A stretch of DNA of 64,000 bases, taken from positions 1 through 64,000 of IMG/VR virus record IMGVR_UViG_3300023179_000096, one strand, 5' to 3'. Of the stretch, positions 6,252 through 51,803 are shown one piece after another. The first letter of the stretch is position 1. The number at the start of each line of letters is the position of its first letter. Under the pieces are notes generated by a model. It saw only the letters and a list, made by a program, of their open reading frames with translations, was not told the DNA's origin and searched no databases. The stretch comes from a virus. Position numbers and translations under genes: made by a program.

Positions 6252-6661
6252 TGGCATATTCAGATAGAGTAGTAGATCATTACGAAAATCCTAGAAATGT
6301 CGGGTCTTTTAATAAGGAAGACCCGACTGTAGGTACAGGCATGGTGGGAGCCCCTGCTTGCGGGGATGTTATGAAACTACAAATAAAAGTTAATGACCGT
6401 GGAATTATCGAAGATGCAAAGTTTAAGACTTATGGTTGCGGAAGTGCTATTGCGAGTAGCTCATTGGTTACAGAATGGGTCAAAGGAAAAACACTTGACG
6501 AAGCTGGACAAATTAAAAATGTCCAAATTGCGGAAGAACTTGCTTTACCTCCAGTCAAGATCCATTGTTCGATTTTAGCAGAAGATGCAATAAAGGCTGC
6601 TATCAATAACTACAAAGAAAAACATGCTAACAGTAACACAGAATGCGCATGCGCAAATTAA
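6251..6661 (+). CDS. iscU: IscU-type Fe-S cluster scaffold protein
   Basis: A 136-residue protein that appears to be a complete IscU, the scaffold on which [2Fe-2S] and [4Fe-4S] clusters are built. All functional residues are present: Cys37 and Asp39 in APACGD, Cys63 in YGCGSA, and His105-Cys106 following the LPPVK motif that binds the HscA chaperone. The numbering matches that of E. coli IscU. It has a nine-residue extension with two extra cysteines (ECACAN) at its end. No IscS, HscA/B or ferredoxin gene is nearby, so it must work with host partners. The last 38 bases overlap the start of the iscA-like gene. It was probably captured from a bacterial host. Confidence 0.93.
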   Translation: MAYSDRVVDHYENPRNVGSFNKEDPTVGTGMVGAPACGDVMKLQIKVNDRGIIEDAKFKTYGCGSAIASSSLVTEWVKGKTLDEAGQIKNVQIAEELALPPVKIHCSILAEDAIKAAINNYKEKHANSNTECACAN

Positions 6662-32183: not shown

Positions 32184-35100
32184 ATGGCAATTGATTTTAA
32201 TACAGCACCGTATTACGATGATTTTGAAGAATCAAGTAATTATTATCGCATTCTGTTCAAACCAGGAAGGGCTGTACAGGCAAGAGAACTAACCCAGCTT
32301 CAATCTATTTTGCAAAATCAAATTGAACAGATGGGTAGGAACGTATTTAAAGATGGTTCCCTTATCACCGGGGGCAAGTCTTTTTTGAGTACTGGTTCGT
32401 ATATTAAAGTACAGGAAACCTCAGATATTAGTATTTTTGAAGGAAAAACCGTTATAGGTGCAATATCTGGCGCTAAAGCTATTGTTAGAAAAATAACACC
32501 CCTGCAATCTATAAATTCTGTTTCTTATCCCGCTGCTTTGCATTTAGTTTATATTTCAGGAAAATTCTCTGAAGGGGAAACTATTACTATTGATGGCACT
32601 ACAACATCAGTAACAGCTATTGCATCTCCTTCAGTATATACTGGTCAAACTTTATTTTATAGTATAGATACTGGGGTATTTTTTACCAAAGGTCATTTTG
32701 TCTATTGTCCACAACAAACGGTAGTCGTATCCCCAACTTTTAAATTTCAGCCTTCAGCCAGAATTGGTTTAAAAATTTCTGAGGGTATTAAAACATCAGA
32801 AGATGACTCTACTCTATTAGATCCGGCGGTTGGTACCAACAATTATTTTGCACCAGGGGCAGATCGTTATTATATTGATTTAACCTTAGACACTATTGAA
32901 TATGATGCTACTATTGAAGATTCAGATACTACAGTTATAGAAGAGTTTATAGAAATTTGTAATGTAAGACGTGGTGAAATCTCGTCAATAAATGCTGTAA
33001 CTCAATTTAATGAAATAGAAAACGCGCTAGCTAGAAGAACTTATGATGAGTCTGGAGACTATACTATCAGACCTTTCGTTGCAAAATTAAAAGATCATTT
33101 GTTTGGTAATCCAGAATTGCTAACTATGGAAGTTTCTCCTGGAAAAGCCTACGTAAGAGGGTTTGAATTTGAAACCATATCTCCTTCGTATATTTCTCTA
33201 GGGAGAGCAAGAGATGTAGATACCAAGAATGGATATTCTTTATCTTTAGATTACGGGAGCTATATTACCGTATCTAATGTTCGTGGGTTTTTTAATTTTA
33301 CTAACGCACAAGAAGTTGTACTACACCGTGTTTCGGATAATTTAGCTAATGCTGCTACTTCTCAATCTTACTATGAAACTTCTGTAGGAAACGCAAGAGT
33401 GCGGTATGTAGAATATGAAAATAGCAACATCTATAATCTATATTTATTTGATGTGCGTCTTAATTCTGGTAATACATTCAGTGAAACAAGATCTCTTACT
33501 GTTGCCAACCTTACATCATCTGCTGTTGTAAGTAGTTGTAATGTTTATGGTAATACTGTAATTACATACGGTGTGGATGATACGTTTTTATTCCGCGTAC
33601 CTCAAGAAAATATTAAAACTTATGCGAACGTTAATGGCGCAGGCTCGGGTGTTACTGATACTACTTATCAAGCCGCTCGTAATTTTTCAAGCATAAATTT
33701 TGCTCCTGGTACTGGTGCTTATTCAGGTAATTCAGTAGCTACTATTTCTGTAACGGGAAATGACAGTTTTCTCGGTTCTGGAATTTTATCTGATATTTCA
33801 ATTAAAGATCGATTCTATGCTGTTGTAACGGCTGTAAGCGGTGGGGCTACTCATCCTGCTGTGGGTCAGGTGTTAGATTTTTCCGGAGCAAACGGTGAGA
33901 TTGAAATTTCTGGACAAAATGCTTTATTAAGATATAAATCTGGCAATACATTTAGTGCTAACGTAATTACAATTATCTCATCTTCTCAAGCTACTTCAAA
34001 AGTAAAAACTTTAACTTCAGCTAACGTAGAATGGCTAGCTGCCAACGGTAATGCTTATATTAATCTTTTCCGTTCAGATATCTATGATATTGTAAGTATT
34101 CAAGATGCTACAGGTAACAATTTTCTTTCCGCTTATCAGCTCGATAACGGTCAAAGAGATGATTATTATGATCATGGTAATTTAATACTTAGAGCCGATG
34201 CTATCGGCCCGGTTTTAGGGAATACTAATCCTAATGTTGTAGTACAATTTAGATATTTTGATCATTCTGGATCCGGATATTTTGATGCAGATTCTTATAC
34301 TAAGGGCGGGTTAGATTGGGGTGATATTCCTACCTTTAACCGAACAAAAGGTAATCCTGTTAGATTATCTGACGTGATTGATTTTAGACCGGTTCGAGCT
34401 CCTTTTAGTTCCGAATTTTTAGCTGGCAGATCACCTAAACCAGGAGCAATTTTTACTGCTGATTTTGAATATTATTTACCTAGAAGAGATAAATTAGTTC
34501 TTACTAAAGAGCGCAAGCTTGCAATAGTAAAAGGAGTTCCATCTCAATCTCCCTCTTTACCGGCTGATTTAGTTGATTCGATGACGCTGTATACGCTTGA
34601 CATACCTCCCTACACTTCTAAACCTGGGGATGTAAAGCTTACTTATGTAGATAATAAACGGTATACCATGCGTGATATTGGTAAAATAGACAAACGTGTT
34701 GGTCGACTAGAATATTATACCGCATTAAGTTTACTTGAAAAAATCGCAGCAGATGAAAAGATACCATCTGCTATTCCTGGTATAGATAGATTTAAAAATG
34801 GTATTTTAGTAGATTCTTTTGCGGGGCATTCAGTTACCGACGTTAATAACGGTGATGTTAAATGTTCGATTGATTTTGAGAATAGAATTTTAAGACCCCG
34901 TTTTGTTTCTGAATCTTATCTTTACTCTGTAAACACAGTAGAGTCTATTGACTATAGGAAAGCTTTTGATATTCTTACAATGGATTATACTGAAGAGCCA
35001 TTTATTTCTCAAACTAAAGCTACTAATACCGTTTCACTAGTACCGTTCGAAGTTTTTACTTGGAACGGTACCATGACTCTTACTCCTTCGACCGACATAT

Positions 35101-38100
35101 GGGCTGATACTGTTACCAATCCAGCGGTAACAGTTAATTTAAATGGGGAAAATGACGCATTTACACAAATAACCCTAGATTCAACAGGGCTTACTCCATG
35201 GGGTACGCGTTGGAATGATTGGCAATCGGTATTTAGGGGATTAACAGATGTTAATGTAGATGTTCAATCGTCAACTTTTGTTGATAACAAGGTATCTGTT
35301 GATGAAGCAGGTACTATTTCCGTAACTCCTACTGCTAGAACTGAAACCACAACTTCGGTTACTAAAACTTATGAGGAGTCTTTTGCAAGATCGGGCTTAC
35401 AATTTAACTCTAAAGCAAAAACTATTACTGCCAGGCTCGGTGAAAAAGTAATTGATTCTTCTATTATTCCTTATATTAGATCAAGAACAATTAACTTTGT
35501 AGCTAAAAATTTAAAACCAGACACACCTTTGTTTGCAACTTTTGATGGGTATGAAGTTACATCTTATTGTACACCGGGGGTGTATGTTAAGCTAGCTGGA
35601 AATATAGCTGGAAATATTTCAACTCTCACTGTTTCATCTGGTGGGACTACTCGAAGTCAAGGTTCCGTTATATTTCAAAAAGGTAACGTTTTATATTTAA
35701 ACCCGAGTATACAATTGAACTTACCTGAAGTAGGTAATGTAGCAACACTGGTTTCTGCAACAACTACTACTACCGCAAATATTATAGATGTAGAAACATA
35801 TACTAATCTAATTACCAATTCTTCAGGGGATATTGCGGGTACTTTTAGAATACCCAACGATGATAATCTAAAATTTAATTTAGGTGAACGCGCGTTTAGA
35901 TTAGCTGATAGCTTGGATAAAAGGTTTATCACAACAGTAGCAGAAACAAAATATTTGGCGTATGGTCTTTCTCAAACTAAAGAAGATACTATTCTTGCTA
36001 CTAGAATGAATTTAGTATCTATAGACCCATTATTAGAAGTTAGAAAAAGCGGTGCTTCTACTTCAACCAGTCAAAGCTTTAATCAAGGCGTTTCTACTGT
36101 AGGTACATCTAATCAAGGGCAGATTGTTACTAATATAACAAATATTACTAATGAAATACAAAATATTACTAATAATGTAGTAAATAATATTACAAATAAT
36201 ATTATTAATACACCTCCTGCAGTAGACGAAAATGTACAGACATTATTCTGTGGTGAAACTGTAAAGACTACTGGTAAAAATGGCGTTCATCACTTTAAAA
36301 TAAACTTAGGATCAGGTGTCGGCCCGGCTAATGTAATTTGTAAAACCGGTACCATACCAGACAGATTTACACTCAATTATAATGGACAAGAAATAACTTC
36401 TGGATTCCAAACTAGTACTAATAGCAATAATGATATTTCTAATTTTAATCAGAGATTAAAAAACTTAGGGTACCCTGAAATCACTCGAAAAAATGTGGGT
36501 AGCTATAAATTAGAATTTGTTAAACAAAATGCTGGTGTTGAATATGCATATTTAACTGTTGACGCTCCCCTGAAAGGTACAGGGTGGAATATTGAAGTTA
36601 AATGCCCATCTGGTACTGCAAATCCGGCTCCTGGTAATCTATCTCTTTCTCTTACAGACACCATAATAGCTTTAGTTGATACCGATACAGGGAGACAAGG
36701 CTGGGCAGATACCATTCTCACACAAACTGCAGCTACTGATATAGGAATTAGAGGAACAATTACTAATACCTCTAATAACAGCAGATGGACAAAAGATGGT
36801 ATTGATAAAACAGTATATATTACTAGTATAAGTCTAGATAAAACTGACCTATTGCTTGATGAAGGAACCTTAACCGTTGTTACAACTGGAACCGGGCAAG
36901 GTTTATATAACGGGCAATATCCAAATAAAACTAATAGAACTTATAATAATACCCCTCTCCCTGTTCTTTTACAACCAGGAGAAGAAGCAACATTTACAAT
37001 TAGAGTTCAAAAAGGTGCTACAAATCGTATATCCGGTTCAGTAAAAGTTTTAGTAACTGCTGTGGGCCCGGGTGCGGGGGGTACTCAAACTGTTTCAGTA
37101 AATGTGCCTGTGGTTGAATTTACTACTACTGGGCCCCCTCAATATGTTCATCAAGACCCTCTTGCACAAACTTTCTTTGTTAATGAGAGGACATTTCCAA
37201 ACGGGCTATTTATTTCATCTGTAGATCTTTGGTTCTACGAAAAAGATAATATACTCCCTGTTTCCTTAGAATTAAGACCCGTAGTTAACGGTTATCCTAG
37301 CTCAACAGAATTGATACCTTTCGCGTATAAAGTATTAGATTCTCAAGATATTATAACTTCAACTACTTTTGAAAAAGACAAGTATACAAGATTTTCATTC
37401 CCAGCACCGGTTTATTTACCTAGTGGGCAGTATTCTATGGTGTTGAGAGGAAATTCTAAAAAATATAAAGTTTATTCAGCTATACTTGGAGAATTTAGAC
37501 TAGATGAGCCTGATATTAGAGTATCTGAACAACCATATATTGGTTCATTATTTAAATCTCAAAACGCGTCTACTTGGACAGCAGAACAATTAGAAGACTT
37601 GACTGTTAGATTTAATAAGTGTAAATTTAGTACTGATAACCCTACCGTTGTAACCTTGAACGCAGTCGCACCGTCAAATAATGTTGAGTACGATGTGTTC
37701 TTTACAACTGGTGAAACGGTTGAATTTGCAGATACTGCTATCACATATGCATATCGAGGAACAAGTGAAGCTACTGGTATTGTTGACGGTTCGTATAGAA
37801 GATACTTGCTAGGCTCAAATCTACCATTAGAAGAGCGCAAAATAGTTAAAGCTAACACCGGTGACACACTTAAATTTAATGCGGTTCTTCAAACCTCAGA
37901 TTCTTCAATTACACCGGTGCTGGACCTAGAACGCCTAAGTTCAGTACTTATTCGTAATATCATTAATAATGATTCTACTGGGGAAGATAGCTATTCAGGT
38001 GGTAATGCTTTAGCTAAATATATAACTAGAAGAGTAACTCTTAATCCTGGTTTCGAAGCTCAAGATCTAAAAGTTTATTTAAACGCTTATTGTCCAGGGC

Positions 38101-38369
38101 CATCGAGTATTAAAGTATATTATAAGGTTAATGCTCCAGGAACAATTCAGTTTGATGCAGAGAATAAATACGTAGAGATGGCTGTAACAGGTGTAAGCGG
38201 AGATACAAAAGCTGGTTTTGCTGAATATACATTTGAAAATTCTACAGATACTTGTTTACCTGACGGGGCTCGTTTTAATACATTTACAATTAAAGTTGTA
38301 ATGTTATCGTCAGATACTACTCAAGTTCCAATTATCAGAGATCTTAGAGTGTTAGCGTTAGATGGATGA
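32184..38369 (+). CDS. giant DUF4815 virion protein (baseplate/fibre hub)
   Basis: A 2061-residue protein. The N-terminal DUF4815 part (YYDDFEESSNYYRILFKPGRAVQARELTQLQSILQNQIEQMG...) is common to virion proteins of marine T4-like phages and lies where T4 has genes 9 to 11, which attach fibres. Near 1312-1345 an Asn/Ile/Thr-rich stretch (NITNIT... repeated about eight times) probably forms a trimeric coiled coil. After it come Ig-like and jelly-roll-like beta domains. The C-terminal 350 residues start with QYVHQDPLAQTFFVNERTFPNGLFISSVDLWFYEKD, a block often seen in this family. Likely a trimeric spoke that carries tail fibres. Confidence 0.8.
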   Translation: MAIDFNTAPYYDDFEESSNYYRILFKPGRAVQARELTQLQSILQNQIEQMGRNVFKDGSLITGGKSFLSTGSYIKVQETSDISIFEGKTVIGAISGAKAIVRKITPLQSINSVSYPAALHLVYISGKFSEGETITIDGTTTSVTAIASPSVYTGQTLFYSIDTGVFFTKGHFVYCPQQTVVVSPTFKFQPSARIGLKISEGIKTSEDDSTLLDPAVGTNNYFAPGADRYYIDLTLDTIEYDATIEDSDTTVIEEFIEICNVRRGEISSINAVTQFNEIENALARRTYDESGDYTIRPFVAKLKDHLFGNPELLTMEVSPGKAYVRGFEFETISPSYISLGRARDVDTKNGYSLSLDYGSYITVSNVRGFFNFTNAQEVVLHRVSDNLANAATSQSYYETSVGNARVRYVEYENSNIYNLYLFDVRLNSGNTFSETRSLTVANLTSSAVVSSCNVYGNTVITYGVDDTFLFRVPQENIKTYANVNGAGSGVTDTTYQAARNFSSINFAPGTGAYSGNSVATISVTGNDSFLGSGILSDISIKDRFYAVVTAVSGGATHPAVGQVLDFSGANGEIEISGQNALLRYKSGNTFSANVITIISSSQATSKVKTLTSANVEWLAANGNAYINLFRSDIYDIVSIQDATGNNFLSAYQLDNGQRDDYYDHGNLILRADAIGPVLGNTNPNVVVQFRYFDHSGSGYFDADSYTKGGLDWGDIPTFNRTKGNPVRLSDVIDFRPVRAPFSSEFLAGRSPKPGAIFTADFEYYLPRRDKLVLTKERKLAIVKGVPSQSPSLPADLVDSMTLYTLDIPPYTSKPGDVKLTYVDNKRYTMRDIGKIDKRVGRLEYYTALSLLEKIAADEKIPSAIPGIDRFKNGILVDSFAGHSVTDVNNGDVKCSIDFENRILRPRFVSESYLYSVNTVESIDYRKAFDILTMDYTEEPFISQTKATNTVSLVPFEVFTWNGTMTLTPSTDIWADTVTNPAVTVNLNGENDAFTQITLDSTGLTPWGTRWNDWQSVFRGLTDVNVDVQSSTFVDNKVSVDEAGTISVTPTARTETTTSVTKTYEESFARSGLQFNSKAKTITARLGEKVIDSSIIPYIRSRTINFVAKNLKPDTPLFATFDGYEVTSYCTPGVYVKLAGNIAGNISTLTVSSGGTTRSQGSVIFQKGNVLYLNPSIQLNLPEVGNVATLVSATTTTTANIIDVETYTNLITNSSGDIAGTFRIPNDDNLKFNLGERAFRLADSLDKRFITTVAETKYLAYGLSQTKEDTILATRMNLVSIDPLLEVRKSGASTSTSQSFNQGVSTVGTSNQGQIVTNITNITNEIQNITNNVVNNITNNIINTPPAVDENVQTLFCGETVKTTGKNGVHHFKINLGSGVGPANVICKTGTIPDRFTLNYNGQEITSGFQTSTNSNNDISNFNQRLKNLGYPEITRKNVGSYKLEFVKQNAGVEYAYLTVDAPLKGTGWNIEVKCPSGTANPAPGNLSLSLTDTIIALVDTDTGRQGWADTILTQTAATDIGIRGTITNTSNNSRWTKDGIDKTVYITSISLDKTDLLLDEGTLTVVTTGTGQGLYNGQYPNKTNRTYNNTPLPVLLQPGEEATFTIRVQKGATNRISGSVKVLVTAVGPGAGGTQTVSVNVPVVEFTTTGPPQYVHQDPLAQTFFVNERTFPNGLFISSVDLWFYEKDNILPVSLELRPVVNGYPSSTELIPFAYKVLDSQDIITSTTFEKDKYTRFSFPAPVYLPSGQYSMVLRGNSKKYKVYSAILGEFRLDEPDIRVSEQPYIGSLFKSQNASTWTAEQLEDLTVRFNKCKFSTDNPTVVTLNAVAPSNNVEYDVFFTTGETVEFADTAITYAYRGTSEATGIVDGSYRRYLLGSNLPLEERKIVKANTGDTLKFNAVLQTSDSSITPVLDLERLSSVLIRNIINNDSTGEDSYSGGNALAKYITRRVTLNPGFEAQDLKVYLNAYCPGPSSIKVYYKVNAPGTIQFDAENKYVEMAVTGVSGDTKAGFAEYTFENSTDTCLPDGARFNTFTIKVVMLSSDTTQVPIIRDLRVLALDG

Positions 38370-38614: not shown

Positions 38615-39457
38615 ATGGCAACATTAGTTCTTAGAACAGTTAAAGGTACCCCGTTAACTAACACGGAGGTGGATGGAAATTTTGCAAATTTAAATTCCGA
38701 TATCGGATTCGTATTTACCCGTGCAAATACTATCAATTCGAGCGTTGGTGTTCTTTCTAATTTAGCTACTACTGAAAAATCTAATCTAGTTGCTGCAATT
38801 AATGAGGTGGCTTCTGAGTCTACATCTAATGTTGCTATTACTGCAGGCACTGTTTCCGGTGTTGTAATTAGTAATTCAACATGGTCTGGTAATACAATAG
38901 CTATTGCTCAAGGAGGAACAGGGCAAACAACCAGAGCAGCAGCTATTAATGCCCTATTACCCTCTCAAACATCTAATACTAATTATTTTTTAAGAACCGA
39001 TGGTAGCGATCTAACCTGGGCCCAGGCTGCTATTACTATAACTGATGATACGACAACAAATTCAACATTCTATATTCCTCTAACAACTGCATCAACTGGA
39101 ACCATTACCACTGCTAACGTTTCTACCACCAAATTATTTTTTAATCCTAGCACAGGATTGCTATCTTCTACTGACTATAATTCAACTTCTGATATTTTAT
39201 TAAAAGAAAACATAACTTCTATAGAAAATCCTCTTGAAACAATTTCAAAATTAAATGGAATTAAATTTAATTGGAAAGATTCCGGTAGCGAAGCCTTCGG
39301 TTTATCAGCTCAAGAAGTAGAAAAAATTATACCAGAAATTGTTAGAACTAACCCTAGTGGTTACAAAGGTATTAATTACCTAAATATTATAGCTTTCTTA
39401 GTAGAAGCAATAAAAGATTTAAAATCACAAGTACAAGAGCTTAAAAACAATAAATAA
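38615..39457 (+). CDS. short tail fibre with S74 chaperone domain
   Basis: A 280-residue fibre protein. The N-terminus (MATLVLRTVKGTPLTNTEVDGNFANLN) is the usual start of T4-like marine fibre proteins. The C-terminal 110 residues are an intramolecular chaperone of the Peptidase_S74 type (TDYNSTSDILLKENITSIENPLETISKLNGIKFNWKDSG...AFGLSAQEVEKIIPEI...YLNIIAFLVEAIKDLKSQVQEL), which trimerises the fibre and cuts itself off at the Ser-Asp site. The same module occurs at the end of the 902-residue fibre at 49095. The final 25 residues are a coiled coil. Confidence 0.82.
   Translation: MATLVLRTVKGTPLTNTEVDGNFANLNSDIGFVFTRANTINSSVGVLSNLATTEKSNLVAAINEVASESTSNVAITAGTVSGVVISNSTWSGNTIAIAQGGTGQTTRAAAINALLPSQTSNTNYFLRTDGSDLTWAQAAITITDDTTTNSTFYIPLTTASTGTITTANVSTTKLFFNPSTGLLSSTDYNSTSDILLKENITSIENPLETISKLNGIKFNWKDSGSEAFGLSAQEVEKIIPEIVRTNPSGYKGINYLNIIAFLVEAIKDLKSQVQELKNNK
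39449..39456 (+). promoter_or_regulatory. late promoter box AATAAATA
   Basis: The box overlaps the stop of the short fibre gene. Start predicted near 39462, giving a 29-base leader before the cysteine-rich gene, whose ATG has AAGGAG. Confidence 0.55.
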
Positions 39458-39490: not shown

Positions 39491-41980
39491 ATGGCAATCA
39501 AAATAGGCGGAATAACCGTCATCGACGACAGTCGTAATCTATGTAATGCTGCAAATGTTAATGCAACTTCAATTTGCGCAACTAATTTTTATGGAAGCGG
39601 TGCAGGTCTTACTGGGCTAGCTACAGCAGGTGGGGGAGAACTAGTATGTGGTACCACCAGATACACTCTCACTAGTAGTAATCAACGTAGCGTTTCAATT
39701 TGTCTTACATCCACACCTTCCTCGGGGGATATAACCCTACCTAACGCAACTACACTGTCAAAAGGTTCACCGACCTTTACAATTAAAAATGTAAATTGTG
39801 CAACATCTATGGTTATAAGGGATGCAAATAGTTGCATATTAGCGGTTGCTCCTGCATGTTCAACTGTCCAGTTATCGTTATACGATAACTCCTTCTGTCA
39901 AGGTAGGTGGCAAGTCGGCTCTTTTACTTCTCAAGCCCAGATTGTTGATGTTACCTGTGCAAGTTATGGTAATCCTTTCTCTTGTTATTGTTATTATGTA
40001 GACGAAAATTGCAATTGGCATGGTATCTTTTTTAACCCTAATTGCTGCTGTATTTGTTATAGAGCAGTAAAGAAATCTGCTTCAGGCTTCACAGTTAACA
40101 GTAATACATTTACTATACCAGCCACATATTCAACAATTCCTTTTACCATATACTGTGCTTGTTGTAAAGGTGGTTGGATCCTTATACAAGGCTCTAGTTG
40201 CCATACCGGGGGTGGTACTTTAGGATGTAACGCTGTATACTACATAGTAACCAATTGTGACGGTACGTATAGTAGTGCTCCATTCTATGACTGCACAAAA
40301 CAATGTTGTTATGTTGCTCTGGGTTGTAACTCTTCTTGTGGGGAATGGTGGTCAGGTTATAATGGTATATGCCATTTTTTAAATAAGTGGGTGGTAAATT
40401 ATGATACCATTATGAATAACACCACGGATACCTGGTTCTCTACTCGCATTCATTGTTATAATAATCAAACTACGGGTGTCCCAACTATTTGTCAGGCTCT
40501 TTATAGAGGAGGAGCTTACCCTTCCGGTTCATGTAGACTTTGTAGTGCTAGTTTTGGTTGGCAATCACTTTGCTATGATGAAGGATATTTTTTCAATAGA
40601 ACATATGGTTATACGCAGGATGGTACTAATAGGGTAGCAGATTATTTCTGCTTCTGTAATAATGGAAATGTCTGTTACTACTGTTTGTGTGGTGCAAACG
40701 CTGCAGCTTTGAGTACATTTACTGACTACATGATTACCTATATTACATGTGCACATAGAATAGGGTGTGGTGTAAATGCTAGACCACTAGTAACTATAAC
40801 TAAATTTAACCCTGGCCAGGATGGTTTCCAAAACCAGATGGCATTTTCAGCTAATATTTGTGGTACTACTGCACTCTCAGGTTGCTTATTCTGCCCAACA
40901 GGTCTATGTTTTACTCATTCCGGTCAAGAAGGTAATCGTGGAAACGCAGTCTTTTATAGAGTATCCTGTGGATTATTTGCAATTTCAGATTGTGATTGCG
41001 TTACTCAATCATACAAAACAGGTTTCTCTTGGCTTGCAACTGTTTGCCCCCTAACCTTCTGTCCAACCGGTACTTGTTGCACATATGCTTATTATGATAT
41101 GGTAAATCAAAATTGTTGGAGGGCGTTTAATTGCGGCTGTAAAATACCAGGTGATTATAATCAACAAGTATGTGATATGGATTGTGGATTTACTATTGCA
41201 CCATTTGCCTTTAAACAATATCATCTTGTCTGTAATTCGTCCTGCTGTACTATTTACTGGTCACGTGGGTGTGTTATTGGTGACACCTGCTGGCACCTAG
41301 TAAGAATGGGTCATTGTACGGTAGCTGGTGCTTCTGCTTTAAATTGTGTTTGTAGATGGATTATATGTACCTCACCTCATGTCCCCGGTGCTACATCTTG
41401 TTCTTCATTTTATTGCATGGGTACTGCCGATTGTCTATGTTTATATACCTTAAGCGGTATTAGGTATAGATTCTGTGTTTCTGGAGGAGGTACATGGGCT
41501 ACCAACTGCTGTATATCATATGATTGCTGTTTATGTTGTAATTATGGATGTACTAGTTCATGCCCTATTAATGCTTGCTATACCTTCTGCGCATGTGGGG
41601 GTGATAAAGGGGTAACATTTGGTTGTAATACCAATTGTGCAGTACACTATTATGATTTTGCTACATGGCCAGCTGTAATGGCTATAGCAGGATGTATTGA
41701 TAATAAAACCAGATATTCTATTGCCTCATACGACAAAGAAACTTGTCGATTTATGTCGGTTTATAACTGTTGTTCAGCTAGTGGTGCTTTAGATACGGAA
41801 GTTGCTGTAGGTTCCTGGGATCCTAGCACATGTAGTCTTTCTTACCAAAAGGGTGTGCTTATATCTTCATTATCTTTTAATTGGGATACCCTTATACCGT
41901 GTACTTATTCAATACTTTATTCTTGTTCCAATGCTTCATTACTTTTTACTAGAACACTTGGAAAGGTAACATTACTATGA
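39491..41980 (+). CDS. extremely cysteine-rich tail fibre/adhesin protein
   Basis: An 829-residue protein with about 90 cysteines by hand count (near 11 percent), many as CC, CxC or CCCxC (for example NPNCCCICY near 182 and YDCCLCCNYGC near 678), spread over the whole chain. The first 60 residues follow the plan of phage fibre proteins (MAIKIGGITVIDDSRN, then YGSGAGLTGL). It is followed by a fibre-assembly-chaperone-like gene, so it is very likely a tail fibre or adhesin. It is also rich in Tyr, Trp and Gly and has few Lys and Glu. Neighbouring structural proteins have hardly any cysteine. Disulfides after export or lysis, or metal binding, could explain this. No known domain recognised. Confidence 0.75.
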   Translation: MAIKIGGITVIDDSRNLCNAANVNATSICATNFYGSGAGLTGLATAGGGELVCGTTRYTLTSSNQRSVSICLTSTPSSGDITLPNATTLSKGSPTFTIKNVNCATSMVIRDANSCILAVAPACSTVQLSLYDNSFCQGRWQVGSFTSQAQIVDVTCASYGNPFSCYCYYVDENCNWHGIFFNPNCCCICYRAVKKSASGFTVNSNTFTIPATYSTIPFTIYCACCKGGWILIQGSSCHTGGGTLGCNAVYYIVTNCDGTYSSAPFYDCTKQCCYVALGCNSSCGEWWSGYNGICHFLNKWVVNYDTIMNNTTDTWFSTRIHCYNNQTTGVPTICQALYRGGAYPSGSCRLCSASFGWQSLCYDEGYFFNRTYGYTQDGTNRVADYFCFCNNGNVCYYCLCGANAAALSTFTDYMITYITCAHRIGCGVNARPLVTITKFNPGQDGFQNQMAFSANICGTTALSGCLFCPTGLCFTHSGQEGNRGNAVFYRVSCGLFAISDCDCVTQSYKTGFSWLATVCPLTFCPTGTCCTYAYYDMVNQNCWRAFNCGCKIPGDYNQQVCDMDCGFTIAPFAFKQYHLVCNSSCCTIYWSRGCVIGDTCWHLVRMGHCTVAGASALNCVCRWIICTSPHVPGATSCSSFYCMGTADCLCLYTLSGIRYRFCVSGGGTWATNCCISYDCCLCCNYGCTSSCPINACYTFCACGGDKGVTFGCNTNCAVHYYDFATWPAVMAIAGCIDNKTRYSIASYDKETCRFMSVYNCCSASGALDTEVAVGSWDPSTCSLSYQKGVLISSLSFNWDTLIPCTYSILYSCSNASLLFTRTLGKVTLL

Positions 41981-42408
41981 TAATTACAGCTTTAGTCGAT
42001 AATTCTAGAGTAATACAAAAAATAAAAACAGATAATACACCTTTTTTCATAGAGAAACCAGGTCAAGAAAATGTTTTAATTAATACTGAACATATGCCTG
42101 ATGATTTAAAAGAAAGATATAATTATGCAATTCCGTTTCATTCTATGATGTCTAACACCGGCTTTGTTACTCCTCTCTTTGATTTAAAAGATACTGAAAC
42201 AATAACGGAATTATTAAAGGATGAATTTATAATTTTACGTTCTATTCGTAATTTGAAATTATCCGAATCCGATTGGACACAACTTGGTGATGTGCAGTTT
42301 ACTGAGGAAAAAAAACAAGAATGGTTAAATTATCGTCAAGCACTTAGAGATTTACCAGGTAATACACCAAATCCACATTTAGTCGTGTGGCCTGAAAAAC
42401 CGCTTTAA
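41977..42408 (+). CDS. tail fibre assembly chaperone-like protein
   Basis: A 143-residue protein. The C-terminal 60 residues (LRSIRNLKLSESDWTQLGDVQFTEEKKQEWLNYRQALRDLPGNTPNPHLVVWPEKPL) are the tail-assembly-chaperone domain that often follows a fibre gene and helps the tip fold. The N-terminal part (VDNSRVIQKI, FIEKPGQENVLINTEHMPDDL) differs from known ones. It overlaps the cysteine-rich gene by four bases (ATGA), which supports the idea that the cysteine-rich protein is its client. Confidence 0.78.
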   Translation: MIITALVDNSRVIQKIKTDNTPFFIEKPGQENVLINTEHMPDDLKERYNYAIPFHSMMSNTGFVTPLFDLKDTETITELLKDEFIILRSIRNLKLSESDWTQLGDVQFTEEKKQEWLNYRQALRDLPGNTPNPHLVVWPEKPL

Positions 42409-42461: not shown

Positions 42462-43394
42462 ATGCGTAAAGTGATCGTTATTGACGGAGGCGCAGGCCGC
42501 GCCATCGCCGCAATCCCCTCCTTAGAAAAATACGTACGTAATCACCCAGATGAAGACGTACGTATTTTGGTTTTTGGTTGGGATAACTTATACTGGGGTA
42601 ATACTCTCTTACAAGACATTACATATAGTGCCGACACAAAAGGTATCTTTGATAGTTTTATAAAAGATGCTGATGTTATTATATCTCCTGAACCATACCG
42701 CATACCTGGTTATTTTAATCAAAAATTAACTCTTGCTCAAGCTTTTGATAAAGAAATTAATAATACTGACGACCACTCAGATATAGGTCCTCCTAAACTT
42801 TATCTTAGTAAGGGTGAGGAAAAAAATGCTGCTAATATCATTGCTGACTGTAAGGCCCAGCAAAAAAAACAAAAAACTATAGTTATTCAGCCATATGGTC
42901 GTTCAGCTAGAGTTGATAGGGGAGATGTAATTGATGACAGTACCCGAGGGCTTGATTCTAGATCTTACCTTCAGCTAGTAAAGAAATTATCTACAAAGTA
43001 TAATCTTATTTTATTTGCAGAAAAACAATTTCATATCCCAGAAGACACTTACACTCAAAAATTAGAAGCCGATCTTCGCATATGGTCAGCTATTATTGAG
43101 GGCTGTGATTATTTTGTAGGATGTGACTCTGTTGGACAGCATATAGCGCGTGCCTTCAATAAACCAGGTACCGTTATTCTTGGTTCTACTTTTGCAATTA
43201 ATGTTACCTACCCGGACTGGTTTAATATAATAGAAAAAGATGATCTTCCTAAAAAATACTCCCCTATACGGCTTTGCGGTCTTGACTGTCACTTAGCTGA
43301 CAGATATAATGATAAGTTGATGGATTTTTCAGAAAAAGAAATCGATCAAATCTTTATGGCAGTTGTTAATGATATAGAAAAAAAGGTTAAATAA
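42462..43394 (+). CDS. GT9-like (heptosyltransferase-type) glycosyltransferase
   Basis: A 310-residue protein resembling glycosyltransferase family 9 (ADP-heptose:LPS heptosyltransferases). The N-terminal MRKVIVIDGGAGRAIAAIPSLEKYVRNHP and the C-terminal ADLRIWSAIIEGCDYFVGCDSVGQHIARAFNKPGTVILGST fit the two Rossmann halves, the latter being the donor-binding CDSGxxHxA region of GT9. The donor and acceptor cannot be told. It may modify the fibre, capsid or host lipopolysaccharide. AAGGA precedes the ATG, and the carbamoyltransferase follows with one base overlap, so the two act together. Confidence 0.75.
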   Translation: MRKVIVIDGGAGRAIAAIPSLEKYVRNHPDEDVRILVFGWDNLYWGNTLLQDITYSADTKGIFDSFIKDADVIISPEPYRIPGYFNQKLTLAQAFDKEINNTDDHSDIGPPKLYLSKGEEKNAANIIADCKAQQKKQKTIVIQPYGRSARVDRGDVIDDSTRGLDSRSYLQLVKKLSTKYNLILFAEKQFHIPEDTYTQKLEADLRIWSAIIEGCDYFVGCDSVGQHIARAFNKPGTVILGSTFAINVTYPDWFNIIEKDDLPKKYSPIRLCGLDCHLADRYNDKLMDFSEKEIDQIFMAVVNDIEKKVK

Positions 43395-45178
43395 TGGCAT
43401 ATAATATTTTAGCGGTTAACCCTGGACATAATGGAGCCGCAGCATTACTATCAGATGGAGAAGTTGTTTATTATTTGGAAGAAGAGCGTCTTTCAAGGTT
43501 AAAATACGATGGTAACCCGTTCAGAGCAATTTTAGACATTGTTAGTAAATGGCATGTTGATGAGATTGTAATAGGTGGTACTTCAGGACAATTACCTCAG
43601 TTACCATGGACAGGAGAAGATCCTTACACAGCCCTAGTGCGTAAATTTTACCCCGATGTAAAATCGGTTAATCTAGGTAATGAACATCATCTCGGTCACG
43701 CAGCATGTGCGTTTTATAATTCAGGATTTGACAAAGCTATTATTTTAGTGGTTGATGGTGCGGGTTCATATCGGGTTGAACAGCTAGACGAGGAAGGGAA
43801 AGTAAAGGCAGAAGGATTTGAAACTGAGTCATTATGGGTAGGGAGTATAGAAACTCCCCATATATTTGATCTACTTTATAAAGTGTATGGAAATAACACT
43901 GGTATAAAGACGAGTAATGGTAGATTAGAATTTGATAATGCTGTTACGGTTACAAAAGCATATGAGGCTGTAAGCCACTATTTAGGTTTTGGTTTTATAG
44001 AAGCAGGTAAAACAATGGGATTGGCTCCTTATGGAAAAGAATCTTCTGAAATTCCACCTATGTTTGTAAGTAATAGAGGCTCAAAAGATATTTTTGTTCC
44101 TAGTTATCCTGCAGGCGCATTTATAGATACTGCACGATTCCCACATCTACAACAAAAAAATGATCCTAGAGAGTGGCATACGGACCCTAGTTCTCTTTCT
44201 GAAATAGAAAAAGATATTGCATGGCGGGTACAACAAGATACTCAACGTATTGTAGGTGACTACATTGATCTAGCAGTTAGATCCACAGGAATAAAAAAAG
44301 TCGCTATTGCTGGAGGTTATGGTTTAAATTGCGTAGCTAATTATTATTTCCGAAAACGTTTTCCGGATGTAGAATTTTATTGTGAACCTATCGCACACGA
44401 TGGGGGTACAACAATAGGTTTGGCAAAAATGGCATGGTATCAAAATGAAGGAAGTAAAACCCTACCTACATCACCTCAAACTTCTATTTATTATGGGCCT
44501 ACTTACTCCAAAGAGTCAGTTCAATCTGTTTTAGATAGTAATAAAGATAAAATAAAAATAAAAACAGTAACAACAGAAGATATAGCGAAATTAATCGAAG
44601 AAAAGAATATTGTAGCTCTTTACCAGGGAAGATCTGAAGCAGGGCCTCGAGCTCTTGGTAATAGATCTATACTTTATGACCCACGGGATATTAATGGTAA
44701 AGAGATAGTTAATAAAGTGAAAGGCAGAGAATGGTTCAGACCTTTTGCGGGTACTATTCTTAAAGAACATGCAAACGATTGGTTTGATATGGCAGGCATG
44801 GAAGAATCCCCATTCATGATGTATGCTGTTAATGTGGCTGCAGATAAAATTTCAGAGATACCGTGTATTACACATGTAGATGATACCTGCAGGGTTCAAA
44901 CAGTTACGATAGAGCAGAATTTTCATTATTATAATTTAATACAAGAATTTTATAAACTTACAGGTGTGCCAGTCTTGTTTAATACTTCTTTTAATCTTGC
45001 GGGTGAGCCGTTAGTTGAAAAAATAGAAGATGCTCTTGATGCATTGTATAATTCTGAGCTTAAATATCTCTATTTACCAGAATTAGAAGTATTAGTAACT
45101 AAAACAATAGAGGATCCAGTAAAAAATAAAAAAGTAAATAGTATCGATGAACTTTCTGATATTATTATAACTGATTAA
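43394..45178 (+). CDS. NodU/TobZ-type O-carbamoyltransferase
   Basis: A 594-residue enzyme of the carbamoyltransferase family (NodU, CmcH, TobZ), which forms carbamoyl-adenylate and passes carbamoyl to a sugar hydroxyl. The N-terminal Kae1-like part has NPGHNGAAALL near 9 and EHHLGHAACAFYNSGFD near 96-112 with metal-binding His residues. VVDGAGSY, GGYGLNCVANYYFRKRF near 304 and CEPIAHDGGTTIGLA are nucleotide-binding blocks. The C-terminal domain contains YQGRSEAGPRALGNRSIL near 412, which binds carbamoyl phosphate. Related genes occur in marine T4-like phages. Linked to the GT9-like gene, it probably decorates a glycan. Confidence 0.92.
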   Translation: MAYNILAVNPGHNGAAALLSDGEVVYYLEEERLSRLKYDGNPFRAILDIVSKWHVDEIVIGGTSGQLPQLPWTGEDPYTALVRKFYPDVKSVNLGNEHHLGHAACAFYNSGFDKAIILVVDGAGSYRVEQLDEEGKVKAEGFETESLWVGSIETPHIFDLLYKVYGNNTGIKTSNGRLEFDNAVTVTKAYEAVSHYLGFGFIEAGKTMGLAPYGKESSEIPPMFVSNRGSKDIFVPSYPAGAFIDTARFPHLQQKNDPREWHTDPSSLSEIEKDIAWRVQQDTQRIVGDYIDLAVRSTGIKKVAIAGGYGLNCVANYYFRKRFPDVEFYCEPIAHDGGTTIGLAKMAWYQNEGSKTLPTSPQTSIYYGPTYSKESVQSVLDSNKDKIKIKTVTTEDIAKLIEEKNIVALYQGRSEAGPRALGNRSILYDPRDINGKEIVNKVKGREWFRPFAGTILKEHANDWFDMAGMEESPFMMYAVNVAADKISEIPCITHVDDTCRVQTVTIEQNFHYYNLIQEFYKLTGVPVLFNTSFNLAGEPLVEKIEDALDALYNSELKYLYLPELEVLVTKTIEDPVKNKKVNSIDELSDIIITD

Positions 45179-48350: not shown

Positions 48351-48392
48351 GTATATACTTAGTAACAGCTACATAGCAAGGGTTTGAGCCAC

Positions 48393-49085
48393 ATGGCAAA
48401 TATTGTTCAATTAAAAAGATCTTCTGTATCAGGAAGAATACCTGATGCATCTAATGTTTCTATCGGTGAACCGGTTATTAATTTAGCCGATAGAATCATC
48501 TTTACCAAGAGTGGTACAGGTAATGTTATCATTATAGGTGCAGGAACTACATCTAATATTTCCGAAGGTACAAATCTTTATTTTACAAATACCCGCGCTA
48601 TATCAGCTTTTACCAGCGGTTCTGGTATAGATATTAGCTCTAACGGCTTAATTTCAGCAGAAATAACTTCATCATATTTTCAATCCATTGGTGGAAATGT
48701 TGTACCGTCTATTGATAGTGCATATAATTTAGGTTCACCAACTCATCGCTGGAAAACTCTTTATCTGGCAAATAATACCATCGATCTAGGTGGTGCTCTT
48801 ATCAGCTCGGATGGTACCGGGGCTATACAAATCTCCGCAAACGGAGCAGTTCTCCCTCCCAATTCAAGAGTTGATATTGGAAATTTTCAAAAAGAAATTG
48901 CTACTATAAGTGGAAAAGGTGCTACTCAAAGAATAGTACCTTTTTATACTCGTGATACTGGATTAAATTCAGTAGCTAAACTTTTTGAATTTTCTGTCAA
49001 TAACGACTTTTATGTATTTAAATCATTTACTCTTGCAAACGGTTCTTCTGTTGCAGAAACTAATACAACCCTATTTAAATTCTGA
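48393..49085 (+). CDS. tail fibre protein, short
   Basis: A 230-residue fibre protein. MANIVQLKRSSVSGRIPDASNVSIGEPVINLADRIIFTKSG is the fibre start motif shared with the gene at 46719. A single NISEGTNLYFTNTRAISAF repeat at about 53-71 has several copies in the next gene. The ATG at 48393 is preferred over an in-frame TTG at 48384 because it gives the conserved start. The C-terminal 80 residues are a separate beta domain ending ETNTTLFKF. Confidence 0.72.
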   Translation: MANIVQLKRSSVSGRIPDASNVSIGEPVINLADRIIFTKSGTGNVIIIGAGTTSNISEGTNLYFTNTRAISAFTSGSGIDISSNGLISAEITSSYFQSIGGNVVPSIDSAYNLGSPTHRWKTLYLANNTIDLGGALISSDGTGAIQISANGAVLPPNSRVDIGNFQKEIATISGKGATQRIVPFYTRDTGLNSVAKLFEFSVNNDFYVFKSFTLANGSSVAETNTTLFKF

Positions 49086-49094
49086 GTGTAAAAA

Positions 49095-51803
49095 ATGACC
49101 GTAAAAATCCCAATTAGAACAGTTTATGATGCTCAAAACGACCCTACAGGTCTTGCTGAGTTTCAAGTCGGTGAAGTTATAGGTATTGAGACCGGAGGAA
49201 CGGGTGCTAATACCATAGCTGGTGCTAAAACTACTCTAGGCGTTGATAACAGTAATATTCGAAATTTATTTAGCGTCACCGGGAGCGGATCATATAATAG
49301 CACCACCGGGGTTATTACTATAAATGGAGGCGTGTCTTCTGTTGGAGGTGTATCCGGAGAAGTATCTAATGCACAACTTTCAGCTGCTATTTCTACTTCT
49401 GGAATTTTAAATACTTCAAATGTAGCGGAAGGAACAAATCTTTATTACACTAATGCAAGGGCAAGACAAGCTATATCAGTATCTGGTGCGGGTACTTATG
49501 ATTCTTCCACCGGTGTAATAACCGTTACTGGAGGAGTAACGTCTGTTGGGGGTGCTACAGGCGCGGTTTCCAACGTTCAACTAGCTTCTGGAATAAGTCA
49601 AACTGGTGTTTTGACTACTGCTAACGTTTCAGAAGTTTCCAATCTATACTTTACTGATACAAGAGCTAGAAACGCGTTAAGCCAGGGTACTGGTATTTCA
49701 TACAACCCTAGTTCTGGTTCTATATCCGCTAATGTAACTTCAGTTGCTGGAAAAACTGGAGCGGTTACCCTAACTAATGCAGATATTTCGGGATTAACCA
49801 CTGCTAACGTATCAGAATTAAATAATCTTTATTATACAAATACAAGAGCTAATTCAGCTATCGACGGAAAAGTAACTAAAGCTTTTGTTGAAAATTTAAG
49901 TATTAATATTGCTAACTCTAGTATTACTGGTAATATAATTGCATCACAATTGCAACCTACCGGGGTTTCTGCTTCAACATATGGTGGGTCAGGGAATGTT
50001 GGTGTATTTGTTGTTGACCAACAAGGTCGTTTAACTTCTGCTTCTAACGCTGCTATTGGAGGCTCACTAACAGGTATTACTGGTGTTGGTACTATAGCAA
50101 CCGGTACCTGGCAGGGCTCGTCTATCTCAACTGCGTATACCGATGCAAAGGTAACTTCTGTAAACGGAGATACCGGTGCTGTTTCTGGGTTAGCAACTAC
50201 TGCTGCTAATTTAAGACAATTTGCTTCTACCACATCAGCAGATCTAGCCGCAGTAATTTCTGATGAAACTGGCTCCGGGGCATTAGTATTTGCTAATACC
50301 CCTACGCTAACCACTCCTAATATAGGGGCTGCTACTGGTACCTCTCTGGTTCTTTCAGCTAATGTGGTTGCAAAAGATGTAGTCGTACAGGGTAATCTAG
50401 TTGTTACCGGTACTCAAACAATTATTAATACTGAAACTATTGAATTAGCAGATAACAAAATTGTATTAAATTCTGATTTAACTGGAATACCTACACAAGA
50501 TGCAGGTTTAGTTGTAAACCGAGGCTCATCTGCTAATGTAGAGCTATTCTGGGACGAAACAAACGATCGGTGGTCGATTAATACTGGCGCCGCTACTCAC
50601 ATTTTACATAATACCGGAAGAGATGTTGTTTTAGGTACTGAAACTTCTGGCGCGTATATAGGTAACATTACTGCAGGTACAGGTATAACAACCACAGGAA
50701 CACCCGAAGAAGGGTGGTCTGTTGCTGTTGCATTAGCCACATCTGGTGTATCTGCATCTACTTACGGAGGTGCCGCTGTACAACCTGTAATTACTGTCGA
50801 TACCTACGGTAGAATTACATCGGCATCTAATGTTACTAGTACGGTTGCTAATTCCCAAATAACCGGTAACATTATTGCATCACAAATCCAACCTACCGGT
50901 GTTACAGCAAGTACTTATGGTGGTGCGGCTTCGGTACCGGTATACACCGTTGATGCGCAAGGTAGATTAACCAGTGCAGCAAACGTTAGTATTGCAATTG
51001 CTTCTGGAGCGGTCTCTGGATTAGCAACATCTGCGACTACTGATACTACAAATGCAACTAATATTAGTTCTGGTACTTTAAATGCAGCCAGACTAGATAC
51101 ATCTGGTGTAACTGCCTCAACATACGGTGCAGCAGCAGTTCAAACAGTTATTACTGTTGACACCTATGGTAGAATTACTTCTGCTGCTAACGTTACATCT
51201 ACTGTTGCTAATAGCAATATTACTGGTAATATTATTGCAAGTCAAATTCAGCCTACAGGTGTTACATCTGGCACTTATGGTAATGCAACTATTATTCCTA
51301 TTATTACTATTGACCAGCAAGGTAGAATAACTTCTGCTGCTAATGCTTCCGTTTCAAGCGGTACAACTATAACTGATGATACTTCTACTAACACTACACA
51401 TTACGTTCCATTTACAACAGCTACCAGCGGTTCGATTTCTTCCGCGAAAGTTTCAAGTTCTAAACTAACTTTTAACCCATCTTCTGGACTTTTAACTTCA
51501 ACAGATTATAACTCATCATCTGATAAGAGACTTAAGAAAGAAATTAAAACTTATAAGGATGCATTAAGTAAAGTAACTCAGTTAAGAGGTGTAAGTTTTA
51601 AATGGAAGGAGTCGGATCAGACGGGATTTGGTTTACTAGCTCAAGAAGTTTTAAAGGTGATTCCCGAAATTGTTGTTAAGGATGAATCTGGTTACCTTGG
51701 TATTAAATACATGAACTTGATCGGGATTTTAGTTGAAGCTATTAAAGAACAACAAGACCAAATTGATACTCTTAAAGATCAAATTAATAAATTAAATGGC
51801 TAA
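49095..51803 (+). CDS. long repetitive tail fibre with S74 chaperone end
   Basis: A 902-residue fibre. The first half has three or more copies of TANVSExxNLYYTNxRAxxAI together with SVGGxxGxVSN segments. The second half repeats ITGNIIASQIQPTGVTASTYGGA...VxTVDxxGRITSAANV four or five times. This is a long beta-structured shaft. The last 110 residues form an S74 chaperone (TDYNSSSDKRLKKEIKTYKDALSKVTQLRGVSFKWKES...YMNLIGILVEAIKEQQDQI), paralogous to the end of the protein at 38615. The Ser-Asp pair is intact, so self-cleavage is expected. The repeats invite recombination and length variation. It overlaps gene 13 by eight bases. Confidence 0.85.
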   Translation: MTVKIPIRTVYDAQNDPTGLAEFQVGEVIGIETGGTGANTIAGAKTTLGVDNSNIRNLFSVTGSGSYNSTTGVITINGGVSSVGGVSGEVSNAQLSAAISTSGILNTSNVAEGTNLYYTNARARQAISVSGAGTYDSSTGVITVTGGVTSVGGATGAVSNVQLASGISQTGVLTTANVSEVSNLYFTDTRARNALSQGTGISYNPSSGSISANVTSVAGKTGAVTLTNADISGLTTANVSELNNLYYTNTRANSAIDGKVTKAFVENLSINIANSSITGNIIASQLQPTGVSASTYGGSGNVGVFVVDQQGRLTSASNAAIGGSLTGITGVGTIATGTWQGSSISTAYTDAKVTSVNGDTGAVSGLATTAANLRQFASTTSADLAAVISDETGSGALVFANTPTLTTPNIGAATGTSLVLSANVVAKDVVVQGNLVVTGTQTIINTETIELADNKIVLNSDLTGIPTQDAGLVVNRGSSANVELFWDETNDRWSINTGAATHILHNTGRDVVLGTETSGAYIGNITAGTGITTTGTPEEGWSVAVALATSGVSASTYGGAAVQPVITVDTYGRITSASNVTSTVANSQITGNIIASQIQPTGVTASTYGGAASVPVYTVDAQGRLTSAANVSIAIASGAVSGLATSATTDTTNATNISSGTLNAARLDTSGVTASTYGAAAVQTVITVDTYGRITSAANVTSTVANSNITGNIIASQIQPTGVTSGTYGNATIIPIITIDQQGRITSAANASVSSGTTITDDTSTNTTHYVPFTTATSGSISSAKVSSSKLTFNPSSGLLTSTDYNSSSDKRLKKEIKTYKDALSKVTQLRGVSFKWKESDQTGFGLLAQEVLKVIPEIVVKDESGYLGIKYMNLIGILVEAIKEQQDQIDTLKDQINKLNG

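Follow-up and report, generated by a model that had tools for sequence, protein, structure and literature searches.

Sugars are attached to cysteine thiols by the glycocin S-glycosyltransferases SunS and ThuS, enzymes of the GT2 type that modify a small bacteriocin at one or two Cys. Modification of many sites is known from the BAHT systems TibC and AAH, in which a dedicated enzyme encoded beside a surface adhesin carries out hyperheptosylation on Ser residues; in TibC, Asp110 was recognised as the catalytic base by superposing the enzyme on WaaC, and mutating this residue leaves TibC inactive (PMC4358343). WaaC, WaaF and WaaQ themselves belong to family GT9. Carbamoylated heptose in Pseudomonas LPS has been attributed to WapO, whose gene clusters with those for HldE and heptosyltransferases (PMC8005017). 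Among phage tail proteins, the Gly-rich tips of the Gly_rich_2 family (PF21722) include Pam3 gp24 and phage S16 gp38, and the Gly-rich domain of the Pam3 fibre is a proposed host-receptor-binding domain (PMC9608196). Finally, the "LPS clusters" of phages P-SSM2 and S-SSM7 (T4-GC 302-308), which consist of the same genes as those considered here, were interpreted as LPS genes or as stuffer DNA (Sullivan 2010, PMC3037559), and the available portion of that account makes no mention of Cys-rich neighbours. In the open-access literature we found no prior description linking carbamoyltransferase or heptose genes to glycosylation of Cys in phage tails.

The locus analysed here lies in a 64,000-nucleotide stretch of viral DNA (the window), which encodes a Cys-rich tail protein in an operon with a glycosyltransferase (GT) and a carbamoyltransferase (CT). 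The GT shares the GT-B fold of TibC and AAH, and we propose a parallel with these systems in which neighbouring genes imply ADP-heptose as the donor. The phage system would differ from BAHT in having a tail protein as its substrate, Cys rather than Ser as the proposed acceptor and a coupled CT, and from SunS and ThuS in relying on a GT9-like enzyme and in modifying Cys en masse. The explanation that we favour, and hold to be rather probable though well short of firm, is that the Cys-rich protein forms the distal, receptor-binding part of the fibre in a T4-like marine phage, and that the GT S-heptosylates its Cys residues and the CT caps the heptose, yielding a hyperglycosylated receptor-binding tip. 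Comparative genomics and modelling form the evidence base for this proposal: they establish the gene and its locus, the link between Cys density and the GT in unrelated tail proteins, the folds of the GT and of a tip, and ADP-heptose genes in relatives, while the S-linkage, the sequence of the steps and the benefit to the phage are inferred.

The Cys-rich gene lies in a tail-fibre operon

The Cys-rich open reading frame (ORF; Table 1) begins with ATG, contains no internal stops and encodes a protein with 10.86% Cys (66 TGT and 24 TGC codons). By comparison, Cys accounts for 0-1.6% of residues, mostly less than 1%, in the other 24 window ORFs that were counted, and the binomial probability of finding at least 90 Cys at the highest of these rates (1.6%) is 4e-45, which bears out the initial annotation of a protein with about 90 Cys among nearly Cys-free neighbours. 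The residues cover the whole length of the protein, with successive densities of 4, 12, 12, 10, 7, 16, 19, 8 and 2 per 100 aa. Recoding of TGT and TGC was considered and rejected, since the same codons are used sparingly in other genes and the standard code gives an open frame. With AAGGAG in front of it and a 4-base overlap with the downstream chaperone gene, the ORF reads as a translated gene of an operon. Within this operon, 33 nt separate the S74 fibre gene from the Cys-rich gene and 53 nt separate the chaperone gene from the GT gene, while the stop of the GT gene overlaps the start of the CT gene (TAATG).

Table 1. Features of the window discussed in the text
Feature	Position	Strand	Remarks
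iscU	6254-6628		Real gene, 33 kb from the Cys-rich ORF
Large baseplate/fibre-locus protein (DUF4815, "VrlC"-like)	32184..38369	+	PF16075 E=1.6e-61; phrog_358
Fibre protein with C-terminal S74 intramolecular chaperone	38615..39457	+	PF13884 E=5e-13; PHROG tail fibre / baseplate wedge initiator; 0 Cys
Cys-rich tail-fibre protein	39491..41980	+	829 aa, 90 Cys; proposed S-linked heptose acceptor
Tail-fibre assembly chaperone (Phage_tail_APC)	41977..42408	+	PF16778 E=5e-20; phrog_8716/4912
GT9-fold glycosyltransferase (GT), 310 aa	42462..43394	+	AlphaFold2 fold; proposed thiol-directed heptosyltransferase, Arg13 replaces catalytic Asp
NodU/CmcH-type carbamoyltransferase (CT)	43394..45178	+	PF02543, PF16861, NodU profile; proposed heptose carbamoylation

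The surroundings of the gene agree with the earlier view of its product as a fibre-type protein followed by a fibre-assembly chaperone: the latter is confirmed by its PF16778 match, an S74-chaperone fibre gene lies upstream, and the DUF4815/VrlC gene upstream in this tail-fibre locus, a baseplate gene of T4-like marine phages, has its best isolate relatives in Pelagibacter phage HTVC008M and cyanophages. The window protein itself matched no family in Pfam (including PF21722), PHROG or NCBIfam, whole-protein homology searches returned no matches, and no database homologues extend past its first ~67 residues. Overall, the Cys-rich protein is of the fibre type and probably exposed on the virion, as previously suggested, given that many of its Cys-rich relatives are Gly-rich tips of PF21722 and that one model matches the Pam3 fibre (see below).

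Relatives of the Cys-rich protein and the tip domain

A search based on the DUF4815 neighbour identified a locus (L002) with a 773-aa, 99-Cys ORF at the same place, and a further counterpart, in L019, has 650 aa and 74 Cys. The window, L002 and L019 proteins have only their N-terminal ~45-67 residues in common and cannot be aligned over the rest, and all three contain 11-13% Cys. Taken together, the Cys-rich tail proteins form about 10 clusters without mutual similarity in composition-adjusted BLAST. PF21722 was matched by 19 of the 42 members of a Cys-rich tandem tip family, and a model of a Cys-rich tip (pLDDT 71.5) had the Pam3 fibre (7ypx) as its best match (E=4e-8). The residues that most often stand in for Cys in this family are T, S, G, N, R and Q.

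Many Cys-rich proteins thus share their family with the Gly_rich_2 tips of Pam3 and S16, to which the window protein itself shows no match. The initial annotation had looked to homologues lacking most of the Cys as grounds for rejecting its reading, and here the outcome depends on the GT: PF21722 proteins of GT-less phages are Cys-poor (0-1.1%, with one moderate exception in S-WAM1), whereas GT-adjacent homologues keep ~10% Cys. This contrast is also seen within single genomes, as the two GT-adjacent tip genes of P-SSM2 encode 10.1% Cys and its distant PF21722 copy 0.4%, with the same values for the GT-adjacent and remote copies of P-SSM5. The exception, a moderately Cys-rich (3.5-5%) Gly-rich ORF in the GT-less S-WAM1, counts against the association.

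Cys density follows the GT gene

We tested this association from three anchors in viral contigs, expressing Cys density per 100 aa in place of a threshold of at least 8% over whole ORFs, which undercounted loci that are Cys-rich at the C terminus only. In S-RIM4 and S-WAM1, some Cys-rich ORFs lie antisense to longer genes that they overlap, and these were discarded. Starting from the CT, 80 loci were obtained, in which Cys-rich ORFs were frequent, only where a GT homologue adjoins the CT. Starting from a Cys-rich tip family (L057-type, 74 viral contigs), a GT gene was present in all 61 contigs with at least 1.26 kb of downstream DNA, and the 13 GT-negative contigs all end less than 950 nt downstream; 58 of the 61 GT-positive loci also contain the CT, and the remaining 3 contigs end within 2 kb. 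Starting from the GT, which has at least 587 relatives in viral contigs, a neighbour with at least 10 Cys/100 aa was found in 54 of 67 loci with room for one, and the CT was present in 77 of 84. When 205 GT loci were clustered, 71 of 82 clusters with room at 90% identity, and 34 of 36 at 70% identity, had a Cys-dense neighbour, though these loci are related and their counts non-independent, a dependence that identity clustering lessens without removing. Within the fetched flank, about 11 clusters with room (90% identity) had no dense-Cys neighbour, some of them being intermediate, and for L402/L403 such a neighbour was absent from the fetched flank at the 70% level too; in these clusters the Cys-rich gene may lie further off.

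Loci in which the genes are separated indicate which of them accompanies the cysteines. CT-only loci reached a maximum of 6 Cys/100 aa (n=15) against a median of 14 in GT loci (Mann-Whitney P=3e-6, a statistic that ignores relatedness). The tip-domain (Gly-rich) gene beside the CT of P-RSM4 encodes 2 Cys in 388 aa, and S-SM2, which carries heptose genes without the GT, has no Cys-rich tail. Conversely, L397/L398 (probably one phage) carries the GT without the CT and is Cys-rich, at 14 Cys/100 aa. It is thus the GT that goes with the cysteines, and neither the CT nor the heptose pathway.

These patterns bear on other roles that the Cys residues could have. One possibility, already raised in part by the initial annotation and in our view unlikely, is that disulfides formed after lysis, within or between subunits, stabilise the tip, with the GT and CT glycosylating other residues or the host LPS. 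Disulfides are common in secreted and exposed proteins, and in the tip family no residues are better conserved than C and G, with ten columns exceeding 90% Cys; a structural role would also explain these columns, which count to that extent against Cys as sugar anchors. However, 23 of the 42 family members have an odd number of Cys (19 an even number), so that full pairing is disfavoured while inter-subunit disulfides stay compatible, and Cys spacing in the window protein is random, without periodicity. Disulfides also leave unexplained why Cys density follows the GT across unrelated tails, and why one and the same domain lacks it where there is no GT.

A second possibility, to which we give still less weight, is that the CT carbamoylates the thiols directly, producing S-carbamoylcysteine, a glutamine look-alike, while the GT modifies something else. 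Enzymes of the HypF type (HypF/HypE) do carbamoylate a Cys thiol, the phage CT has a weak HypF profile match, and it adjoins the GT in nearly all of the GT loci counted above. Nevertheless, its profile fits NodU, an O-carbamoyl enzyme, better than HypF, GT-less CT genes are not found beside Cys-rich proteins even where, as in P-RSM4, they adjoin a tip domain, and the phage with a GT and no CT is Cys-rich all the same.

The GT has a GT9-like fold without the catalytic Asp

An AlphaFold2 model of the window enzyme (pLDDT 93.2) gave VIA Z scores of 24.2 against the GT9 structure 3tov, 21.7 against WaaF, 21.4 against TibC (263 residues, 2.9 A) and 19.5 against WaaC, compared with 12.3 and below for other GT-B folds, and Foldseek returned TibC as its top match (E=6e-10). 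A plant NDH-supercomplex subunit also reached a Z score of 19 against this model. Sequence profiles were weak: TIGR02201 matched with E=4e-4 and 19.6 bits, below its cut-off of 170, and the P-SSM2 copy matched PF01075 with E=0.011, short of the curated cut-off. A GT profile search against PDB sequences returned no matches, the kinship being visible by fold comparison, and hhalign aligned the GT profile to E. coli K-12 WaaC/F/Q with E=1.5e-6.

In common with WaaC, WaaF and WaaQ, the phage GT has the fold and keeps the donor-site motif of the C-lobe (DS/DT-x-x-x-H-x-A). Unlike them, it is encoded in tail-fibre loci and has Arg13 (GGAGR) aligned on their catalytic Asp13 (MGD). Arg13 is found in 205 of 205 phage GTs, so that the catalytic Asp of the N-lobe is lacking throughout, although some of these sequences were fetched by a pattern containing Arg13 (the 39 in alignment A1 were not). 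Further differences separate the phage GT from TibC. The N-terminal beta-barrel of TibC (~97 aa) is absent, residue 1 of the model aligning to TibC residue 97, and alignments A1 and A3 contain no conserved Cys tetrad corresponding to its four-Cys iron finger. Because barrel and finger are absent, the GT is not a strict member of the TibC family. Loss of the Asp would fit a thiol acceptor, which should need less help from a base than a hydroxyl does; alternatively, it could mean that activity has been changed or lost.

Carbamoyltransferase and ADP-heptose supply

The CT contains both NodU domains (Carbam_trans_N, PF02543, E=3e-22; Carbam_trans_C, PF16861, E=1e-59). By description it can be likened to WapO, which offers a precedent for carbamoyl-heptose (7-O-carbamoylation) from a heptosyltransferase/HldE cluster; WapO acts on LPS heptose, whereas the phage CT is proposed to act on protein-linked heptose. 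In isolate phages the CT is followed by genes for an adenylyltransferase, a kinase, a HAD-IIIA phosphatase, a cupin and an epimerase, and in P-SSM2 the heptose-1-P adenylyltransferase (TIGR02199, 1e-30), heptose-7-P kinase (TIGR02198, 3e-43) and ADP-heptose epimerase (TIGR02197, 5e-62) are identified by NCBIfam profiles. The ADP-heptose route in these GT-CT clusters is complete except for the first isomerase; the phage gene annotated as "phosphoheptose isomerase" is a HAD phosphatase without the SIS_2 (GmhA) domain, even in P-SSM2. ADP-heptose genes were present in all 9 isolates and SAGs fetched (L095-L103); among close relatives of the window locus, L019 has most of them and L016-L018 have some. 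None were detectable in the window record, a 69.9-kb fragment, and ADP-heptose for this phage would have to come from the host or from the missing part of its genome.

Such gene content could also point to the host surface, with the GT, CT and heptose genes altering LPS in superinfection exclusion and the Cys-rich tail hitch-hiking with host-range modules. The earlier annotation of these genes as LPS genes of unknown function (PMC3037559) and the precedent of WapO-type carbamoylation of LPS heptose (PMC8005017) speak for this scenario. We nonetheless judge it improbable, as it predicts neither ~10% Cys in unrelated tails nor the within-genome contrast of P-SSM2, and the heptose genes of the GT-less S-SM2 come without a Cys-rich tail. 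Least credible is the iron or Fe-S loading of the fibre put forward in the initial annotation, for although that annotation was right about iscU in the same genome, this gene lies 33 kb away, enrichment of CC, CxC or CxxC was looked for in the window protein and none was found (autocorrelation z 0.8 at +2, -0.9 at +3), and Cys density tracks the heptosyltransferase-fold gene and its CT instead.

A proposed route to S-heptosylated fibre tips

The comparisons above, together with the models, suggest that the Cys residues anchor a dense layer of S-linked sugars and act neither as metal sites nor in disulfides. Inside the infected cell, where the cytoplasm is reducing, the GT would move heptose from ADP-heptose onto the thiols of the fibre, and the coupled NodU-type CT would then carbamoylate the sugar, in the manner proposed for WapO and LPS heptose. 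The outcome would be a fibre tip bearing dozens of small S-linked (carbamoyl-)heptoses. Such a coat would guard the thiols, screen the tip or make it more stable, and influence how it binds receptors. We take the thiol as the likely acceptor from the way abundant Cys accompanies the GT in sequences that are otherwise unrelated, and from the lack of the general base that serves hydroxyl acceptors. Carbamoylation of the heptose is proposed because the CT comes after the GT in the operon, yet does not suffice for Cys-richness and in one case is not needed for it, and tip protection or receptor tuning because of the position of the tip. A more far-reaching version, which we would back only a little beyond an even chance, is a phage-encoded system of mass S-heptosylation, in which a GT9-fold enzyme with Arg in place of the lost catalytic Asp has become thiol-directed and modifies tens of Cys on receptor-binding tail proteins with (carbamoyl-)heptose, a pressure under which unrelated fibres would have converged on ~10% Cys.

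If this proposal is correct, it accounts for the presence of ADP-heptose and carbamoyltransferase genes in some marine phages, and dense S-linked heptose would represent a new class of protein glycosylation on the part of the virus that contacts the host. Such tips could be overlooked by phage proteomics in its standard form, where Cys is expected as carbamidomethyl-Cys.

Distribution among isolate phages

A search of 50,697 phage records found the GT in S-CAM1, S-CAM3, S-SSM6a, S-SSM7, Sf-FS3, P-SSM2, P-SSM5 and single-cell viruses, and homologues of two Cys-rich tips occurred only in GT-carrying phages. A census of ORFs of at least 200 aa with ~8% or more Cys found none in HTVC008M, P-SSM7, S-WAM1, S-SM2, P-RSM4 or Bellamy, nor in P-RSM6 up to its last 1.5 kb. 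In P-SSM2 (2 ORFs), S-SSM7 (3) and S-CAM1 (3), by comparison, all such ORFs are at the GT locus. The resulting genomic rule, a GT9-like gene beside a Cys-dense tail protein, is testable in the culturable phages S-CAM1, S-CAM3, S-SSM7 and P-SSM2. The same 50,697 records also included a weak match to the GT in Vibrio phage SBP1.

Cysteine content and gene neighbourhood

The largest strongly cysteine-rich protein seen (136 Cys in 1383 aa; contig L016, 505-4653) matched no Pfam family, and its gene adjoins both a putative heptosyltransferase gene of the GT9 fold (GT) and a NodU-type carbamoyltransferase gene (CT). The GT neighbour in L397 and L398, which are probably one phage, is also Cys-rich (40 Cys in 537 aa), and no carbamoyltransferase was found within 7 kb of GT in these contigs. 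Among the control phages, which do not carry GT, the sole exception to low cysteine content is a Gly-rich ORF of moderate content (11 Cys in 315 aa) in S-WAM1 (KU686210.1, around 27811-28755).

In P-RSM4 (L202 1968-4742), a CT without GT adjoins a Cys-poor, Gly-rich gene for the distal end (tip) of the fibre, with 2OG-Fe(II) oxygenase and ferrochelatase genes also beside it; this neighbourhood is possibly another tail-modification arrangement. Prolyl-4-hydroxylase-like/2OG-Fe(II) oxygenase genes are also found near the GT-CT-heptose cluster of P-SSM2, and several are interspersed within that of Sf-FS3 (L099 11251-20532), where they may point to further modification of the tip.

Annotation of related loci

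Two cyanophage gene names are apparently wrong. T4-GC306 genes annotated 'phosphoheptose isomerase' (L095 15976-16320 and homologues) match HAD-IIIA phosphatase profiles and not GmhA in profile comparison, and the adjacent cupin gene is labelled 'cysteine dioxygenase' in S-CAM1/S-CAM3. Four contigs with GT-CT-Cys-rich loci carry archaeal MAG labels (L320, L322, L324, L325); L322 is similar to the cyanophage-type locus L035, and all four look like misbinned phage contigs.

Other features of the window

The phage does encode IscU, as the initial annotation claimed, at a distance from the Cys-rich fibre locus.

Additional features annotated in the window
Feature	Position	Basis or remark
IscU-type Fe-S scaffold gene	6254-6628	NifU_N, E=8.5e-55
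tmRNA gene, tag ANDEVYALAA	8286-8670	ARAGORN
Second fibre/spike locus	48384-51803	
Endosialidase-type tail-spike	48384-49085	Weak match; part of second locus
S74-chaperone fibre	49095-51803	0 Cys; part of second locus
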